From Candidatus Gastranaerophilales bacterium (GTDB lineage Bacteria > Cyanobacteriota > Vampirovibrionia > Gastranaerophilales > Gastranaerophilaceae): a stretch of DNA of 50,911 nt. The stretch covers positions 1 through 50,911 of the forward strand of contig CANQML010000003.1 in NCBI GenBank assembly GCA_947624935.1, in the 5' to 3' direction. Positions 1-50,911 of the stretch are shown here, piece by piece. The notes beneath the pieces are model-generated. The model worked only from the letters and a program-made list of their open reading frames with translations, ran no database searches and had not been told where the DNA came from. The translations under genes and the position numbers were made by a program. Each line of letters opens with the position of its first letter. Position 1 is the stretch's first letter.

Positions 1-1152
1 ATGAAAAAAGGTTTTACAATGGCAGAAGGTGCTACGCACGTAGCCATGCAACACAATAATCGTAAACTTGCATTTACATTGACAGAAGTCCTTATTACCC
101 TCGCCGTCATCGGTATCGTCGCCGTTATGACAATACCAAACTTGGTACAAAACTATCAATCAAAAGCATGGGAAACGGCAGCAACAACATTTAACAGGAA
201 ACTGGGTGAAGCATTAAAGGTAATGAATACGCAAGAAACACTTGCAGGCTACAGTTCGACGGAAGATTTTGTAAAAGAATTATCAAAACATTTAAAAATA
301 ACAAAGACATGTGATAAAAAAAACTTAACAGCATGCTTTAATAATAAAGTAATGTGGGGAGAAGATGAAGTAGATATATCGGAATTATCAACGAGTGCGG
401 ATATGGGGCATGATGATTGGAAAACAAATATGGTAGGATTTCAAATGGCAAACGGTGTAACGGGACTTGTTGCATATAATCCTGCATGTACTCAAGACCC
501 GTATAATAACAGACACATAGCAATAAGCGGAGGTATAGACGGCAGAAAAGGCAAGGTTGAGTTTCCCGGAACGGATTGCATAGCGATGGTATATGATGTA
601 ACGGGATACGGAAAACCTAATACAAAAGAAAAGGATATATCAGGCAACGTAACAACATTAGCAAAAGCCAAATCTTGTGATGTGAAATTTGCAGATCATT
701 GTTGGGCTATATTGGATCAATCTACACCGCTATCATCGACAGAATGCAACGAACACAAAGCAGAATTAGGCATACCTGATTGTTGTACCGAAGAATGGTG
801 TTCGTCACGTGACGACTATTGGGCAGGAGCTGTTAAACAGTGTGGCGGAATAAAGAACATGCCAACTATGGAACAGTTAGCACAACTTGCAACACAGATA
901 TATGGAGTAAGTATAGGAGCAAAAGATAATAAATATCCTGTAACAGTTCAAGACCAAGTGTTATTTGACACGCTTCTGTCGAAATCGCCCTATTCCGATT
1001 GCTTCTTTGTTTGGTCGAGTGAGGAGTATAGAGATCTTGAAGTATACAATCGCGTCTTTTACAAAACATACACACGCTATAACGATAGCAACACCAGTCG
1101 TGAATCCGGCGGTGAAGGAGGTCGTAACATTACGGTTTGTTTGAGTGATTAA
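1..1152 (+). CDS. Type IV prepilin-like protein (pseudopilin), 383 aa
   Basis: Secreted or pilus-associated protein with a class III prepilin signal. The basic leader ends RKLA, followed by FTLTEVLITL and a hydrophobic helix running to about residue 45; the predicted cut is A24/F25 with Glu at mature position 5. The rest (about 340 residues) is Cys-rich (for example CDKKNLTAC, CCTEEWC) and matches no fold I recognise. The leader contains an earlier prepilin-like string, GFTMAEG at residues 4-10. The ATG is base 1 of the window, so neither the ribosome binding site nor a possible upstream start can be seen. A terminator hairpin follows the stop. Family call is secure; substrate and function are unknown. 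Confidence 0.85.
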   Translation: MKKGFTMAEGATHVAMQHNNRKLAFTLTEVLITLAVIGIVAVMTIPNLVQNYQSKAWETAATTFNRKLGEALKVMNTQETLAGYSSTEDFVKELSKHLKITKTCDKKNLTACFNNKVMWGEDEVDISELSTSADMGHDDWKTNMVGFQMANGVTGLVAYNPACTQDPYNNRHIAISGGIDGRKGKVEFPGTDCIAMVYDVTGYGKPNTKEKDISGNVTTLAKAKSCDVKFADHCWAILDQSTPLSSTECNEHKAELGIPDCCTEEWCSSRDDYWAGAVKQCGGIKNMPTMEQLAQLATQIYGVSIGAKDNKYPVTVQDQVLFDTLLSKSPYSDCFFVWSSEEYRDLEVYNRVFYKTYTRYNDSNTSRESGGEGGRNITVCLSD

Positions 1153-19064: not shown

Positions 19065-20495
19065 ATGCAAAAATATGAACAAGCTTTCGGTAAAAACGAC
19101 ATAAGAGGGATTTTCGGACAGGACATAACGGAAGAACTTTTCTATAATATAGGTTTAGGGTTTGTCGAGTGGCTTAAAATAAATTCAAATAAAAAGCCGG
19201 ATGAGATGAAAATAACCGTTTGCCGTGACGCCAGACTTCATTCGCCGCAGCTTGCAAACGCTTTGATATGCGGGGTTTCTTCAACAGGCGCAAAAGTCGT
19301 TGACTTGGGGCTTTGCCCGACACCATTGGGCTATTATTCGGAAGCCGCCGCAAATGACGTAACATCCGCCATGATTGTAACGGCAAGCCACAACCCGAAA
19401 GAATACAACGGGCTTAAAATGACTTATAACCGCCAAACTTTAAACGAAAATCAAATAAAAGAGGTTAAAGAGCTTACGTTTAAAAATTGGCAAAAACCCG
19501 ACTTTAATTGCCCCAAAGCCGAAAAATACAATATCATTCCCGATTACATAAATGATATGCTAAAACGTTTCGGAAAAATCGGGGAAAGCATTAAAGTTGT
19601 TGTCGACAGCGCAAACGCAACTGGCGGAATTGTTGCGCCCGAATTATACAAAAAATTGGGGTGCGAAGTCGTTGAACTGTTTTCCGAACCCGACGGCAAT
19701 TTCCCGAACCACCACCCAAATCCGAGTGATTTAAAGACATTGGACACAATCAAAAAAACGGTAGTTGAAACGGGAGCGGATGTCGGGATTGCGTTTGACG
19801 GTGACAGCGACAGAATTGGGGTTATAACAAGCGAGGGGCAAACCTTGACGGGCGACAAGCTGCTTTTAATCTATGCAACAGACTTAATTAAAAATTGCAA
19901 AGAAATGCCGACGGTTGTATCGGAGGTTAAATGTTCGCAAGTTTTGTTTGATACCATAAACAGTACGGGCGCAAAAGCCGTTATGTGCAAAACAGGTCAC
20001 GGCTATGTAAAAGAAAAAATGAAAGAAACTGGCGCCGTTTTAGCAGGCGAAATGAGCGGTCACACATTCTTTAAGGACAGATATTTCGGTTTTGACGACG
20101 CGATTTATGCAGGCTGCAGAATTATAGAAATAATTTCAAAAAACAAAGCCGAAAATCCCAATTTCAAACTTAGTGATTTGTTAAAGCCCTTTAATGCGGT
20201 TTATACGTCTGATGAGGTGAGATTTCCCTGCCCGAATGAGCTTAAAAAGCCCGTTATGACAGAATTAAAAGAATATATTGAAATACATAAAGATATGTTT
20301 AGTGCCGAAATCAAGGATATTATAACACTTGACGGGATGAGGATTGTATTTGACGGCGGGTTTGCGCTAATTCGTCAAAGCAACACAGAACCTGTTTTTA
20401 CATTGAGATTTGAGGCAAAGACGAAGGAAATGTGCGAACATTTCAAAAAATGTATGCTTGGCAAATTGGACGAAATAATAAAATCAAAACTTTAA
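19065..20495 (+). CDS. Phosphomannomutase/phosphoglucomutase, 476 aa
   Basis: Alpha-D-phosphohexomutase. Phosphoserine loop MIVTASHNPKEYNG (Ser108), metal loop GIAFDGDSDRIGV (about residue 248), sugar-binding loop AGEMSGHTFFKDRYFGFDDA, and phosphate-binding RQSNTEPVFTLRFEAK at the C-terminus. It interconverts hexose 1- and 6-phosphates for envelope polysaccharide and, with glgC elsewhere in the window, glycogen. It is ManB/AlgC-like rather than GlmM by the metal and sugar loops, but specificity is inferred. GAGGAG lies upstream of the ATG. Confidence 0.92.
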   Translation: MQKYEQAFGKNDIRGIFGQDITEELFYNIGLGFVEWLKINSNKKPDEMKITVCRDARLHSPQLANALICGVSSTGAKVVDLGLCPTPLGYYSEAAANDVTSAMIVTASHNPKEYNGLKMTYNRQTLNENQIKEVKELTFKNWQKPDFNCPKAEKYNIIPDYINDMLKRFGKIGESIKVVVDSANATGGIVAPELYKKLGCEVVELFSEPDGNFPNHHPNPSDLKTLDTIKKTVVETGADVGIAFDGDSDRIGVITSEGQTLTGDKLLLIYATDLIKNCKEMPTVVSEVKCSQVLFDTINSTGAKAVMCKTGHGYVKEKMKETGAVLAGEMSGHTFFKDRYFGFDDAIYAGCRIIEIISKNKAENPNFKLSDLLKPFNAVYTSDEVRFPCPNELKKPVMTELKEYIEIHKDMFSAEIKDIITLDGMRIVFDGGFALIRQSNTEPVFTLRFEAKTKEMCEHFKKCMLGKLDEIIKSKL

Positions 20496-20708
20496 AAGTT
20501 CATACGGTTCAACATTCAACGCTTTAGCAATCATTCTTATTCTTGAAAGCGGGATATCTCTGTGAGCGTTTTCAATATTAGCGATATATGAGTTATCTGC
20601 ACCAATTTCAAAACTGAGCTGTTCTTGAGTCATACCTCTTTCAAGACGGAGTTCACGCACCCGCTTGCCGAATTTCTTATGAAAAACTTTACTCATTTTT
20701 TTACCCAT
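20484..20708 (-). CDS. XRE-family helix-turn-helix regulator, 74 aa
   Basis: Cro/CI-type DNA-binding domain filling the whole protein: FGKRVRELRLERGMTQEQLS, then FEIGADNSYIANIENAHRDI, and LNVEPYELLKF. No effector domain. It overlaps the convergent phosphohexomutase end by 12 bp. The start may be the ATG at 20708 or at 20696; neither has a clear ribosome binding site. Target genes are unknown. Confidence 0.85.
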   Translation of the reverse strand: MGKKMSKVFHKKFGKRVRELRLERGMTQEQLSFEIGADNSYIANIENAHRDIPLSRIRMIAKALNVEPYELLKF

Positions 20709-20826
20709 AAATAAAGATATAGCAAATAATACAAATAAAAAGTATTGCTATTTTGAAGATTATATGGTATAAACATGATTGTAATGCGTGTTTATGGCAT
20801 GTATTTTTTGTTTAAAAGATGTTAGG

Positions 20827-20859
20827 ACTTTAAGTCGTTAAGACGTTAAGTTCGTATAT
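20827..20859. repeat. Short iteron array (GTCGTTAAG/GACGTTAAG) upstream of pilin gene
   Basis: Units of about 9-10 bp, ending in TTAAGTTCGTATAT. The same block, including TTCGTATAT and about 20-30 bases before the ribosome binding site, recurs at 45618-45667 before another pilin gene. Confidence 0.65.
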
Positions 20860-20891
20860 GAAAATAAATTATTAGAAAAGGAGCAATAAAG

Positions 20892-21785
20892 ATGAAACAA
20901 TTAAAGAAAATTACAAGAAGTAGAGTCATTGCGAGGTGGCAAGCCACTCATCACTTAGGGCTTTGCGAATTTGCCAATATGCGAGCCGAGCGTCGCAATC
21001 GCAAAGTTGGTGAAATGCAACGATTATGCGATTACGACGTCGCTTACGCTCCTCGTAATGACGAGAACATTGGCACTTCATATAGCCTAATTAAAGTAAG
21101 CGACTTAACGTCTTATCGTCTTAACGACTTAACGACTTTAAGAAAAGCCGCCTTTACATTGGCTGAGGTCTTAATCACTTTGACGGTCATCGGCATTGTT
21201 GCTGCCATGACTATTTCTAATTTGGTTCAAAATTATCAGGAAAAAGTTATTGTTACCCAACTCAAAAAAACATACGCAATGCTTTCACAGGCAACTGAAC
21301 TCGTAAAAATTGATTATCCGTTTAGCGAATGGAATTTGATAGATACCAACACAGATTCAGTAAAAAATATTTACGAAATGTATAAAAAATATTTAAGAAT
21401 AAATAAAGACTGCGGTTGTGGAGTAAGGGCACCCGTCGGCTGTTGGAGTGAGGATGTAACAAAGCGATTTAAAGGAAATGATGCTGCCAACGTAGCCGGT
21501 AAAGGCTATATTGGATCCTATGCCTGCGCGGTTAGACTTGCTGACGGTACAAATCTGACATTTGATATTTATACCGGAACACCGGATTACTTAGCATTTT
21601 ACTTGGATTTTAACGGCGATAAAAAGCCTAATGAGGTAGGCAGGGATGTTTTTGTATTTAAAATAACTGACAAAGGTACTTTTTCTCCATTTGGCTTAGC
21701 AGAAGGTTGTAAGGCAAGTAACAGCGTGTATTCCGGCTTTTCTTGTGCTGATTATGTCCTAAAAGAAAATAAATTACCAAAATAA
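20892..21785 (+). CDS. Type IV prepilin-like protein with repeat-extended leader, 297 aa
   Basis: Class III signal RKAAFTLAEVLITLTVIGIV, with predicted cleavage A87/F88 and mature Glu5. The hydrophobic helix ends near AAMTISNLVQ. The 87-residue leader is about ten times the usual length: residues 12-57 are encoded by the 138-bp element A, and residues 69-84 by an inverted copy of the iteron array. AAAGGAG (20877-20883) lies just upstream of the first ATG, so translation really starts before the insert. The mature domain is Cys-rich (CGCGVRAPVGCW) with a D-rich, EF-like LDFNGDKKPNEVG near the end. Processing of such a long leader is inferred, not shown. Confidence 0.85.
   Translation: MKQLKKITRSRVIARWQATHHLGLCEFANMRAERRNRKVGEMQRLCDYDVAYAPRNDENIGTSYSLIKVSDLTSYRLNDLTTLRKAAFTLAEVLITLTVIGIVAAMTISNLVQNYQEKVIVTQLKKTYAMLSQATELVKIDYPFSEWNLIDTNTDSVKNIYEMYKKYLRINKDCGCGVRAPVGCWSEDVTKRFKGNDAANVAGKGYIGSYACAVRLADGTNLTFDIYTGTPDYLAFYLDFNGDKKPNEVGRDVFVFKITDKGTFSPFGLAEGCKASNSVYSGFSCADYVLKENKLPK
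20925..21062 (+). repeat. Element A, copy 1 (138 bp, in pilin leader)
   Basis: Bounded by GTCATTGCGAGG and CCTCGTAATGAC, an 11-of-12 inverted repeat. Length is 46 codons exactly. It is translated in frame as VIARWQATHH..EFANMRAERRNR..CDY.....PRND. Copies 2 and 3 are at 45737-45874 and 50668-50811. Confidence 0.85.
21097..21142. repeat. Iteron array inside pilin coding sequence
   Basis: Units CGACTTAACG, TCTTATCGTC and TTAACGACTT are the complement of the upstream array at 20827-20859 and are read as SDLTSYRLNDLTTLRK of the prepilin leader. Confidence 0.65.
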
Positions 21786-21926
21786 ATTTTACGGATGCTT
21801 GCAAATAAAAATCTTTTATGTTAGACTAACACTTGTCAGAAAAGTTATCTCACATATTTTTACCAAACAGCTTGAAATAAGCTTATTTTTGGTGTATGAG
21901 TGAAATTAAACAATGAAAGGTAGACA

Positions 21927-22628
21927 ATGAAAGACGAATTAAACGTTGAAGAAAAAGCGGCAGAAGCAGCCGAAAAAACAGAAGAAACAGTAGCAGAAAC
22001 AACCGAAGAAGTAACAGAAGAAGTTGTAAAAGAAACTGCTGAAGAAACCGTTGAAGAAGCGCCTGAAGAATTGCCTGTTGAAAGACAATCAAAAAGACGT
22101 TCAAGATCGGGTAAAAAACAAAAAATCGAAACAATCGAAGAAAAACCCCAAAGCGAATGGACGGAACAAGTAGTACAAATAAGCCGTGTAACTAAGGTTG
22201 TAAAAGGCGGTAAAAAATTGAGTTTCCGCGCAATCGTAATTGTCGGAAACAAAAAAGGTCAGGTTGGTATCGGTTGTGCCAAAGCATCCGAAGTTATTAT
22301 TGCGATACAAAAAGCAATAGCTGACGGCAGAAAGAACCTCATCACGGTTCCTATATTCAAAACCACAATACCTCATCCGATAACAGGTAAATCAGGTGCA
22401 GGCTCTGTAATGCTTAGACCTGCATCACAAGGTACAGGTATCATTGCAGGCGGCGCTGTCAGACCTGTTTTGGAACTTGCAGGGATTGAAAACATTCTTG
22501 CAAAATCATTAGGTTCAAAATCACCGCTAAACGCGGCTTATGCAACAATCAATGCGCTTAAATCACTTACGCCGTTCAATGATGTTGCTAAAAAACGCGG
22601 TTTAACAATGGCAGAACTTTTAAACTAA
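21927..22628 (+). CDS. rpsE: 30S ribosomal protein S5 with acidic N-terminal extension, 233 aa
   Basis: The S5 core runs from about residue 75: [20 protein letters not shown], then [18 protein letters not shown], ending in GLTMAELLN. Before it lie about 50 very Glu/Thr/Val-rich residues ([20 protein letters not shown]) and a basic linker ([14 protein letters not shown]), making the protein about 65 residues longer than a typical S5. AAAGGT precedes the ATG at 21927. In most bacteria rplR precedes rpsE; here a pilin gene does, so the spc cluster is broken at this point. Needed for decoding accuracy and 30S assembly. Confidence 0.95.
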
Positions 22629-45703: not shown

Positions 45704-47050
45704 ATGAAAGAAAAAGAACAATCAAACTTAAATCATGTCATTGCGAGGTGGCAAGCCACTCATCACATAGAGTTTTGCGAATTTGCCAATATGCGAGCGG
45801 AGCGTCGCAATCGCAAGACTGGTGAAATCCGACGATTATGCGATTACGACGGCACTAACGTGCCTCGTAATGACAAAGCTCAAAGTCATGGCGTTCCACG
45901 TCATTGCGAGGAGGGCGTAGCCCGACGCGGCAATCCATTGAGTGGATTGCTTCGTCACTTCGTTGTCTTGAATTTTGACAACTCGCAAAAGCGTGGTTTT
46001 GCTCGTTTGGACGTGCTGGGCGGCTTACGCCGCGCGGCGCACTTGTCAAAATCCGCTCCTCGCAATGACGGTATCAGTAGCACTCCACAGAGCCTAATTA
46101 ATGATAAGGGCTTAGCGCGAGCGAGCAGAGGGCGAGCTTTGTCGTCGAAAATGACTAAGTCATTGCAGACGACAAGCGCAGACCCGTTTAACGCGAGCGA
46201 GCAAGACTTCGCTTATTTGCCTATTCGCTTATTCGCTTTAAAACATGCCTCTACCCAAATTATTCGGGGTGCGGCAAAAGCGCGGTTTCGCCGCACCTTA
46301 CGGGCTGGGCTCGCTGACGCTCGCACGGCGCCCTACCGAAAATTTGGTTTTACTTTGGCAGAGATTCTCGTTACCTTAGCCGTCATCGGCATAGTCGCTG
46401 CCATGACAATCCCCAATCTTGTTCAAAGCTATAAGAAAAAAGTTGTTGAAACAAAACTCGCTAAATTTTACAGTATAATGAATAATGCCATAAAGCTCGC
46501 TGAAGTTGATTACGGTCCGCAAAGCACTTGGACGGATTACCATATAACTCAAGACTATGACGATGAACATAACATGGTGTTTGATAAAGGTGATAAGTAT
46601 GATGTGGTTGTCAAAAAATATTTTGCTCCGTATTTAAAAATAACAGGTTCAGAGGAATTTAATGATGTGCCGATTACCTCTTATGGCGGACCACAAAAAG
46701 TTTATTACCTTTCTGACGGTAGTGCATTTGGTTTTAGCACACATGAAAACAGAGAAATATATTTTTATCCCAACAACCCCCAAAAATGTTTGCAAAATTC
46801 TAATGATTCAATGGGTTCATGCAGGTTTGTATTTGCTTTTTTACCTATTATAACGTACGATTACGATAAGCGATATAAATATAATAGAGGTAACGGTATG
46901 CAGCCAAACTTATTAGATTGGGATGGAAAAGAGGATAGCCTTAATAATAATTCTAAACTTGGCTGTAAAAACGGCAACGGTTGGTATTGTACCGAAGTCA
47001 TTCGCCGCAACGATTGGAAGATACCTGATAATTATCCTTACAAATTCTGA
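45704..47050 (+). CDS. Type IV prepilin-like protein with a 215-residue repeat-built leader, 448 aa
   Basis: Class III site YRKFG/FTLAEILVTLAVIGIV with predicted cleavage G215/F216, followed by AAMTIPNLVQSYKKKVVETK. Everything between the native start (MKEKEQSNLN) and YRKFG is translated repeat: element A (residues 12-57), element B (66-122), element D (about 136-169), a GGTGCGGC/GCCGCACC hairpin block, and short arrays. The frame is open throughout. AAGGAG lies 9 bases before the ATG. The mature part shares its C-terminal block (YCTEVIRRNDWKIPDNYPYKF) with the pilin at 49585. The end overlaps cca by 13 bp. Confidence 0.8.
   Translation: MKEKEQSNLNHVIARWQATHHIEFCEFANMRAERRNRKTGEIRRLCDYDGTNVPRNDKAQSHGVPRHCEEGVARRGNPLSGLLRHFVVLNFDNSQKRGFARLDVLGGLRRAAHLSKSAPRNDGISSTPQSLINDKGLARASRGRALSSKMTKSLQTTSADPFNASEQDFAYLPIRLFALKHASTQIIRGAAKARFRRTLRAGLADARTAPYRKFGFTLAEILVTLAVIGIVAAMTIPNLVQSYKKKVVETKLAKFYSIMNNAIKLAEVDYGPQSTWTDYHITQDYDDEHNMVFDKGDKYDVVVKKYFAPYLKITGSEEFNDVPITSYGGPQKVYYLSDGSAFGFSTHENREIYFYPNNPQKCLQNSNDSMGSCRFVFAFLPIITYDYDKRYKYNRGNGMQPNLLDWDGKEDSLNNNSKLGCKNGNGWYCTEVIRRNDWKIPDNYPYKF
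45737..45874 (+). repeat. Element A, copy 2 (138 bp, in pilin leader)
   Basis: Same GTCATTGCGAGG / CCTCGTAATGAC ends and exactly the same length as copy 1, with substitutions that keep the reading frame open (VIARWQATHHIEFCEFANMR). Confidence 0.85.
45900..46069 (+). repeat. Element B (170 bp MITE-like, in pilin leader)
   Basis: Perfect 14-bp terminal inverted repeat GTCATTGCGAGGAG / CTCCTCGCAATGAC. The first 12 bases equal the end of element A, so the two are related. Internal inverted repeats (CAATCCATTGAGTGGATTG) are present. No transposase. A solo left end recurs at 49400. Confidence 0.8.
46111..46210 (+). repeat. Element D, copy 1 (about 100 bp, in pilin leader)
   Basis: GC-rich block beginning GCGCGAGCGAGC and ending GCGAGCGAGCAAGACTTC. 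An inverted, diverged copy lies at 49184-49282 outside any gene. Confidence 0.7.
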
Positions 47051-49584: not shown

Positions 49585-50538
49585 TTAAAACTTAAAAGGG
49601 TAATCCTCAGGGATTTTCCAGCCGTTACGCATAATTACTGCTGTACAATATCCCCTATCATTCTGCAAATTATTACATCCTCGAGTGGTATCTTCTCGCA
49701 ATATTTTGTCAATTTCATCCTTATCGGTCACTGTTGCCCATAGATTATTGCTCCAGCTATACGGTTGAACTCCATGCTGATATAAAACAGAAGCAGATGT
49801 AGACTGCTGCAAGTTTTGTAAAAAAAGGAAACAATCTATTCCGCCATTGCACTCCTCGGTAATTGACCCAAACGGAAAAAACAAGAAGTGAGGCTCTCTG
49901 TCCTTTGTAGACTGATTTGTTATAGCTACAGCACTGCCGTTTGCAAAATAAACATTAATGAAAGGATGTGTAGTACCATCAAGAGCCTTCATATCTTTTA
50001 CTTCCGTTTTTGCGCTCTTTAAATATGGTGCAAGATATTCATTAAAATATTCTTCTATAGAATACGGCATTAAACAAGTTTTAGAAGAATTCAACAGCAA
50101 CCATGAAAATTCTTCACCATGGTCAATTTCAGACAATTTAACTGCTTGATTCATTATTGAATAAAATTGTAACAATCTTGTTTCAACAACTTTTTTCTTG
50201 TAGCTTTGAACAAGGTTTGGAATTGTCATGGCTGCTACAATGCCAATGACGCCAAGGGTCACCAAGACTTCCGCTAAAGTAAAGGCGACATGTTTTAAAG
50301 CGAATAAGCCCTTATCATTAATTAGGCTCTGTGGAGTGTCGCTGTTGTTGTGAAAAACCCTCTCCCTAACCCTCTCCACTAGGAGAGGGCACTCTTCACT
50401 TCTTCCTCTCCCGATTTGGAGAGGATGCAGTTGTGCGAACGCAGTGAGCTTACAACAGCTGGTGAGGGCTCTTCTTCGGATTGCGTCACGACTACCGTTT
50501 TGTTTTGCTACTTTTTCATTTACTAATTCTTTTGTCAT
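49585..50538 (-). CDS. Type IV prepilin-like protein with REP-extended leader, 317 aa
   Basis: Class III site LKHVA/FTLAEVLVTLGVIGIV, with predicted cleavage A85/F86. The 85-residue leader starts MTKELVNEKVAKQNGSRD, then reads through REP-like CCCTCTCC/GGAGAGGG hairpins (LHPLQIGRGRSEECPLLVER) and the PQSLINDKGL segment it shares with the pilin at 45704. AAAGGAT precedes the ATG. The mature C-terminus YCTAVIMRNGWKIPEDYPFKF matches that of the 45704 protein, so they are paralogs. It has two Cys pairs in the distal half. Confidence 0.83.
   Translation of the reverse strand: MTKELVNEKVAKQNGSRDAIRRRALTSCCKLTAFAQLHPLQIGRGRSEECPLLVERVRERVFHNNSDTPQSLINDKGLFALKHVAFTLAEVLVTLGVIGIVAAMTIPNLVQSYKKKVVETRLLQFYSIMNQAVKLSEIDHGEEFSWLLLNSSKTCLMPYSIEEYFNEYLAPYLKSAKTEVKDMKALDGTTHPFINVYFANGSAVAITNQSTKDREPHFLFFPFGSITEECNGGIDCFLFLQNLQQSTSASVLYQHGVQPYSWSNNLWATVTDKDEIDKILREDTTRGCNNLQNDRGYCTAVIMRNGWKIPEDYPFKF
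50358..50475. repeat. REP-like hairpins inside pilin leader
   Basis: CCCTCTCC-ACTA-GGAGAGGG (50370-50389) and CCTCTCC-N6-GGAGAGG (50405-50424), within a longer CT-rich block, all translated in the pilin leader on the minus strand. Confidence 0.65.
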
Positions 50539-50589
50539 AATATTATCCTTTCATTTTCTTGTTGGGCTGAAAGCCCAACCTACATTTTT

Positions 50590-50634
50590 TTAAGTCGTTA
50601 AGACGTTAAGTCTTTAAGTCGATAAGTTCTTTAC
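50590..50634. repeat. Iteron array upstream of pilin gene
   Basis: GTCGTTAAG, ACGTTAAG, TCTTTAAG, TCGATAAG units about 50 bp upstream of the pilin start at 50538, as for the other repeat-bearing pilins. Confidence 0.6.
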
Positions 50635-50667
50635 ATTAAGCTGGCTTTGTAAGATGCCTCTGTTCTC

Positions 50668-50811
50668 GTCATTACGAGGCACGTTAGTGCCGTCGTAATC
50701 GCATTGTCGTCGGATTTCACCAATCCTGCGATTGCGACGCTCCGCTCGCAATGACATATTGGCAAATTCGCAAAGCTCTATGTGATGAGTGGCTTGCCAC
50801 CTAGCAATGAC
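50668..50811 (-). repeat. Element A, copy 3 (144 bp, intergenic)
   Basis: Reverse orientation; ends GTCATTACGAGG and CCTAGCAATGAC. It is 6 bp longer than copies 1 and 2 (two extra codons, ANMSLRAER versus ANMRAER). The same frame is still open although it is outside a pilin gene. The remaining bases to 50911 contain only a partial echo (GTGGCTTGCCA) and no gene I can support. Confidence 0.8.
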
Positions 50812-50911
50812 ATGTACACTAAAAACTCTATATGGTAAGTGGCTTGCCAAATGACGAATGCTACTATGCAAAGCTAATTGTGCCGAAGGCACATTAAACA
50901 CCTCACTCACT

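Follow-up and report, generated by a model that had tools for sequence, protein, structure and literature searches.

Three prepilin genes with long leaders

The window, by which we mean the whole stretch of 50,911 nucleotides analysed, includes three prepilin genes, each with a long leader ahead of the FTLAE box, and three copies of a palindromic repeat, here called element A. The features are as follows.

20878..20883, plus strand: Shine-Dalgarno AAGGAG of prepilin gene 1, 8 nt before the ATG at 20892
20892..21785, plus strand: prepilin gene 1, 297 aa; PF07963 at 22.2 bits, above the curated cut-off
Residues 84-107 of prepilin gene 1: N_methyl motif
20892..21152, plus strand: leader of prepilin gene 1, 87 codons; cleavage expected before F (codon 21153-21155)
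20925..21062, plus strand: element A copy 1, a CGTC-type palindromic repeat of 138 bp, in frame, codons 12-57 of leader 1
21101..21139, plus strand: 8-mer array of the TTAACGTC type, closing the leader of prepilin gene 1
45704..47050, plus strand: prepilin gene 2, 448 aa, mature part DUF6613
45704-46348, plus strand: leader of prepilin gene 2, 215 codons
45737..45874, plus strand: element A copy 2, 90% identical to copy 1, in frame in the leader of gene 2
45899..46070, plus strand: second CGTCATTGCGAGG...CCTCGCAATGACG palindromic repeat in the leader of gene 2; related copies exist
46254..46348, plus strand: module encoding TQIIRGAAKARFRRTLRAGLADARTAPYRKFG directly before FTLAE in the leader of gene 2, common to other leaders
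49585..50538, minus strand: prepilin gene 3, 317 aa, mature part DUF6613
50284-50538, minus strand: leader of prepilin gene 3, 85 codons, built of repeats other than element A
50668..50811, minus strand: element A copy 3, inverted, 144 nt (two codons more), outside the leader of gene 3

The frame of gene 1 is unbroken from the ATG at 20892 to FTLAEVLITL, which bears out the leader of 87 residues proposed for this gene in a first-pass annotation of the window, and no ATG, GTG or TTG with a Shine-Dalgarno match occurs in the gene downstream of element A. An inverted counterpart of the array that closes this leader precedes the gene, at about 20824-20853. Genes 1 and 2 score above the Pfam cut-off for N_methyl; gene 3 is recognised only via DUF6613. 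The structure model of gene 3 has a long N-terminal helix (81-140) and a sheet, with leader residues 25-79 at a pLDDT below 50. A fold search of the mature prepilin part against the PDB gave no significant match, the window has no Rfam match, and none of its long-leader prepilin genes has a poly-G tract.

In the region 20484-22628, gene 1 is flanked by phosphoglucomutase and rpsE; because sister species carry other fast-changing genes between these two, the locus is a variable site. At window 58-132, elsewhere in the genome (C22, C66, C89 and C99), and at L169, L248 and L310, the FTLAE box is duplicated (FTLAEGATHVAMQHNNRKLAFTLAEV and similar), which looks as though a short insertion had doubled the cleavage site.

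Element A is a repeat of prepilin neighbourhoods

The two ends of element A are inverted (GTCATTGCGAGG...CCTCGTAATGAC, with terminal ...CCTCGTAATGACG) and carry a CGTC/GACG tag, and CGTCATTGCGAGG ends are present in other palindrome copies. As DNA it folds better than 200 of 200 shuffles (z -4.6). The first-pass annotation had recorded a 138-bp element with inverted ends in three copies, two of them placed between start codon and cleavage box (genes 20892-21785 and 45704-47050), and both statements stand. It had also held that all three copies keep one frame open. Copies 1 and 2 do share one frame. Copy 3 sits outside any leader, some 130 nt ahead of the gene 3 ATG.

The same genome (2.2 Mb in 181 contigs) contains 43 matches to element A, of which 40 are usable for placement: six lie in prepilin leaders, 13 fall within 600 nt of a prepilin gene, 19 sit at contig ends where no prepilin is visible, and two are elsewhere. 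The copies in leaders are on the gene's own strand, and the full-length ones are all in one frame; the favoured site is some 10-50 nt past a prepilin stop codon. With only 6 of 40 copies in leaders, element A is not itself leader-targeted, and a leader-specific element is ruled out. The proposal that it is targeted to the discarded part of the protein must be given up, since the mostly intergenic placement that its author had set against it is what the genome contains. Element A is a repeat of prepilin neighbourhoods, not of leaders alone. No transposase is linked to it (the Y1_Tnp loci lack element A), and a plasmid search with a related palindrome gave no match. An open frame at 50614-50910 on the minus strand, leader-like in that element A is followed by NRGILQSQLNVKNLST, stops without a pilin and is a possible leader relic.

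Repeat-built leaders across the genome

The genome encodes about 116 prepilins (114 N_methyl hits; 116 genes by a motif scan of the DNA examined, 547 kb around prepilins and element A copies) and a single prepilin peptidase gene (Peptidase_A24). Dozens of the prepilin genes have an N-terminal leader of 50-215 residues. Among the 82 genes whose upstream region is complete, leaders have a median length of 82 codons; 46 of these leaders have at least 40. Thirty-four of the 116 leaders are cut off by the end of a contig; in this family, short-read assemblies break in prepilin leaders.

Repeats of many families cover 98% of the 85 leaders of at least 25 codons, and 89% of leader nucleotides have a copy outside leaders. 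The modules of this mosaic include CGTC palindromes, GC-rich palindromes encoding PTPCGRGS...SPARGEGA, 8-mer arrays (LTSYRLNVLTTS, LFAYSPIRLFA), 9-mer arrays (THFTHL) and others, and N-terminal and C-terminal leader segments (MTKELVNEKVTRHDG..., NSGTPQSLINVKN...) are common to several genes. One site is found both empty (CATGAC/GG, as CATGACGGAGATAGTGGC in C58, C53 and C75) and filled (CATGAC[GTCACACGTCATTGCGAGG...CCTCGCAATGAC]GGAGATAGT or equivalent, in C39, C170 and C7), presumably by insertion. Because copies spread with duplicated or exchanged leaders, independent insertions must be far fewer than copies.

In the 46 complete long leaders all 4,743 codons are free of stops, the +1 and +2 frames having 313 and 390. 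Because the choice of start itself uses the frame, the test that matters is whether the frame remains open as far upstream as an ATG preceded by a Shine-Dalgarno match; it does so in 46 of 46, with a spacing of 6-9 nt between the two in almost all cases. Ungapped matches between leaders are in the same frame 2,154 times and in a different frame 12 times, counted as pairs of copies and not as independent insertions. These figures bear on the view that the repeats are untranslated 5' regulatory elements, with the real start near FTLAE. The same repeats do occur in intergenic DNA of this genome, and many N-terminal REPs have been cautioned to be possibly extragenic (PMC3733652); against this stand the open frames, the frame agreement, and the finding that 33 of 45 complete long leaders have no ATG, GTG or TTG within 30 codons of F, only two of the 45 having a start codon with a Shine-Dalgarno match in that interval. 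We regard untranslated repeats as very improbable. A downstream start, which the first-pass annotation had named as an outcome that would overturn its account, is rejected in view of this near absence of usable start codons close to F.

That the pattern is an artefact of assembly or binning is barely credible. The genome is a draft whose contigs break in leaders, but the window genes lie inside a 50.9-kb contig, sister genomes show the pattern too on contigs of 176-439 kb, and misassembly cannot produce a frame constraint.

Judged by codons with a single difference, amino-acid change in the leaders is nearly neutral, with dN/dS about 0.84; the first 25 mature codons give about 0.05. Mature pilin regions in the 547 kb examined yielded no repeat copy, and outside prepilin leaders the only frames of that DNA with repeats are an unassigned one (C129) and one that is leader-like and truncated by a contig end (C58). 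When the reading frame is transferred, non-leader copies away from contig ends, a sample biased to the surroundings of prepilins, have 21 stops in 2,610 codons versus 7 in 4,594 for leader copies, an excess that is only moderate. The leaders are hydrophilic and net basic and end in G or A before F. A membrane-like stretch occurs in 2 of 70 leaders; in four of the five other frames of the leader DNA the count is 10-36 of 70, and in two it is 24-36. Low hydrophobicity is expected if the peptide has to remain in the cytoplasm. The special feature is the leader, which takes many repeat families in frame in most of the roughly 116 prepilins, the mature regions holding none. The genome-wide search called for in the first-pass annotation thus finds leaders accepting many families in frame, with element A itself mostly elsewhere: the original observation is confirmed and was understated, and its interpretation is supported in part.

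Leaders vary independently of the mature pilin

Mature pilins that are 80-96% identical can carry unrelated leaders. C78, with a leader of 98 codons, and C48, with a poly-G leader, are 92% identical in their mature parts and unrelated in their leaders, and the same is true of C23 and C58 (89%) and of window gene 3 and C59 (80% amino-acid identity). DNA homology within such pairs in most cases starts between -13 and +32 nt of F, and in most it ends no more than about 10 nt from the stop codon. Across 54 genes, similarity of leaders is uncorrelated with similarity of mature parts (Mantel rho 0.008, with 196 of 500 permutations as large). Where the two bodies of a pair are still 90-96% identical, wholesale replacement of the leader, rather than divergence, is needed; from the sequences, its cause may be recombination, insertion-deletion turnover or both.

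Long open leaders filled with repeats, 50-205 codons before FTLAE, are found as well in sister species (G005, G010 and G013) and two other genera of the family (G016 and G057), where prepilins were chosen by N_methyl score, nearby repeat or large frame, so that these cases document presence but say nothing on frequency. G057 reads the palindrome in a different frame (RSLAMTK, not PRNDG), an indication of separate events. Palindromes elsewhere in the family are ordinary intergenic repeats.

Inheritance alone might account for leader segments common across genes: a single ancestral long-leader prepilin would have been duplicated about 100 times, the intergenic copies would be relics of dead prepilins, and no insertion or recombination would be going on now. 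Such a history predicts neither the missing correlation between leader and mature similarity nor the unrelated leaders on closely related bodies, and the empty and filled forms of one site and the palindromes read in other frames in other genera also speak against it, so we consider it improbable.

Poly-G tracts

In many prepilins a poly-G tract (8-14 G) lies 10-20 codons past the start, and in the assembly most of these tracts put the gene out of frame. They are found in this genome (C41, C66, C53, C48, C97, C6, C70, C120 and C109) and in relatives (L157-L208, L294-L307). For 61 of the 63 such genes with a good start, the frame is open from the tract to FTLAE, with no stop in 4,039 codons; the tract leaves 11 of the 61 in frame and 50 out of frame. 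One homologous group in this genome has G9, G10, G11 and G12, and only G11 is in frame. An open frame after the tract, with genes both in and out of frame, is expected of slipped-strand phase variation, and we regard the poly-G prepilins as candidate phase-variable pilins.

The long leader might then be functional, a contingency or expression module in which repeats and poly-G tracts switch pilins on and off and also act as recombination sites that pair different bodies with different leaders, the outcome being antigenic variation. The 61 open poly-G genes, the homologous group with a single tract in frame, and unrelated leaders on 80-96% identical mature pilins are all in line with this. The window leaders and most long leaders of the genome lack a poly-G tract, however, and leader amino acids change almost neutrally, so that the proposal is possible and on balance doubtful. 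A bolder version is more tentative still. The prepilins would be two-part genes, in which an exchangeable, discarded repeat-built leader, with the start and often a poly-G switch, is joined to a cassette running from FTLAE to the stop codon; repeat-mediated recombination would re-pair the two across more than 100 loci and generate combinatorial phase and antigenic variation of a surface filament, and the switch would leave the mature protein unmarked.

The leader as a probable refuge for repeats

The explanation we favour, at a probability of about 0.7, is that REP/RPE-like palindromes are tolerated in a leader that is translated and then discarded, and that leaders are exchanged among pilin bodies. 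Each gene would start at its own Shine-Dalgarno sequence and ATG. The ribosome would read a long, hydrophilic, basic and probably disordered leader derived from REP/RPE-like palindromes and short arrays, and the single prepilin peptidase would be expected to cut before the F of FTLAE, whereupon the leader is lost. Since only frame, solubility and the end of the leader would matter, this would be the sole coding place where dispersed repeats survive, and for that reason they would have accumulated both there and in the neighbouring intergenic DNA. In turn, the repeats seem to allow leaders, together with start site and 5' region, to be swapped among about 116 dispersed pilin bodies.

It thus seems that a throw-away peptide has turned into a place where repeats are tolerated, and the leader is perhaps an exchangeable switch module. 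This would be a clear-cut example of selfish or junk DNA turned coding where the product is discarded, and it makes testable the question of why proteins come to contain RPE-like elements in the first place. On this account the prepilin peptidase and the signal-recognition route should both accept leaders ten times as long as usual. Should reassortment be active, these gut bacteria would have a large unstudied system of pilus variation.

Comparison with known systems

GTAG-tagged REPs mobilised by RAYTs flank their own Y1 transposase gene. Element A differs in having no linked transposase, and only a GTAG-like hairpin is found at Y1_Tnp loci: of two Y1_Tnp hits, one lies beside a hairpin (L252, 743-773) similar to GTAGGTTGGGCTTTCAGCCCAAC. 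This GTAG-type hairpin, GTAGGTTGGGCTTTCAGCCCAAC, occurs just before the Shine-Dalgarno sequence of many start sites, for example at window 50550-50580.

In Neisseria (pilC, opa, pilE/pilS), simple repeats lie in the signal-peptide region, and pilin sequence is reassorted against a constant 5' end. Simple repeats near a signal peptide and reassortment of pilins are common to both systems; here, in contrast, the pilin genes number about 116, all complete and dispersed and each having a start and leader of its own, and no silent cassettes were identified.

Class III leaders, as in T4b pilins and the Streptococcus sanguinis pilins, vary in length (PMC10191384), and like those described here they are hydrophilic, cytoplasmic and end in G or A. 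The present leaders differ in consisting of dispersed repeats, in reaching 85-215 residues and in varying between near-identical pilins; we found no reports of class III leaders with these properties and, in the open-access literature, no paper on repeats within the leaders of prepilins or on this group's pilins.

The closest likeness is to CGTC-tagged REPs, including RPEs, which are known inside genes and also at N-termini, where the copies may be untranslated; Rickettsia conorii proteins decorated at the N-terminus are expressed, and reported REP-encoded regions reach 43-82 aa (PMC3733652, PMC10969869). Element A has the features of this class: it is a short palindrome (about 100-150 bp in the class) with a CGTC (GACG) end, present in many dispersed copies, inserted in frame in coding DNA and found in intergenic DNA too. 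The resemblance to Rickettsia palindromic elements of an in-frame palindrome in the discarded part of a prepilin, drawn in the first-pass annotation, is therefore supported. RPEs, however, enter many unrelated genes and stay in the product, whereas in the 547 kb examined here only prepilin leaders are entered, in dozens of paralogues, over up to 215 residues and in a part expected to be removed. By structure and behaviour, element A fits the CGTC-REP type, minus the insertion in diverse unrelated genes.
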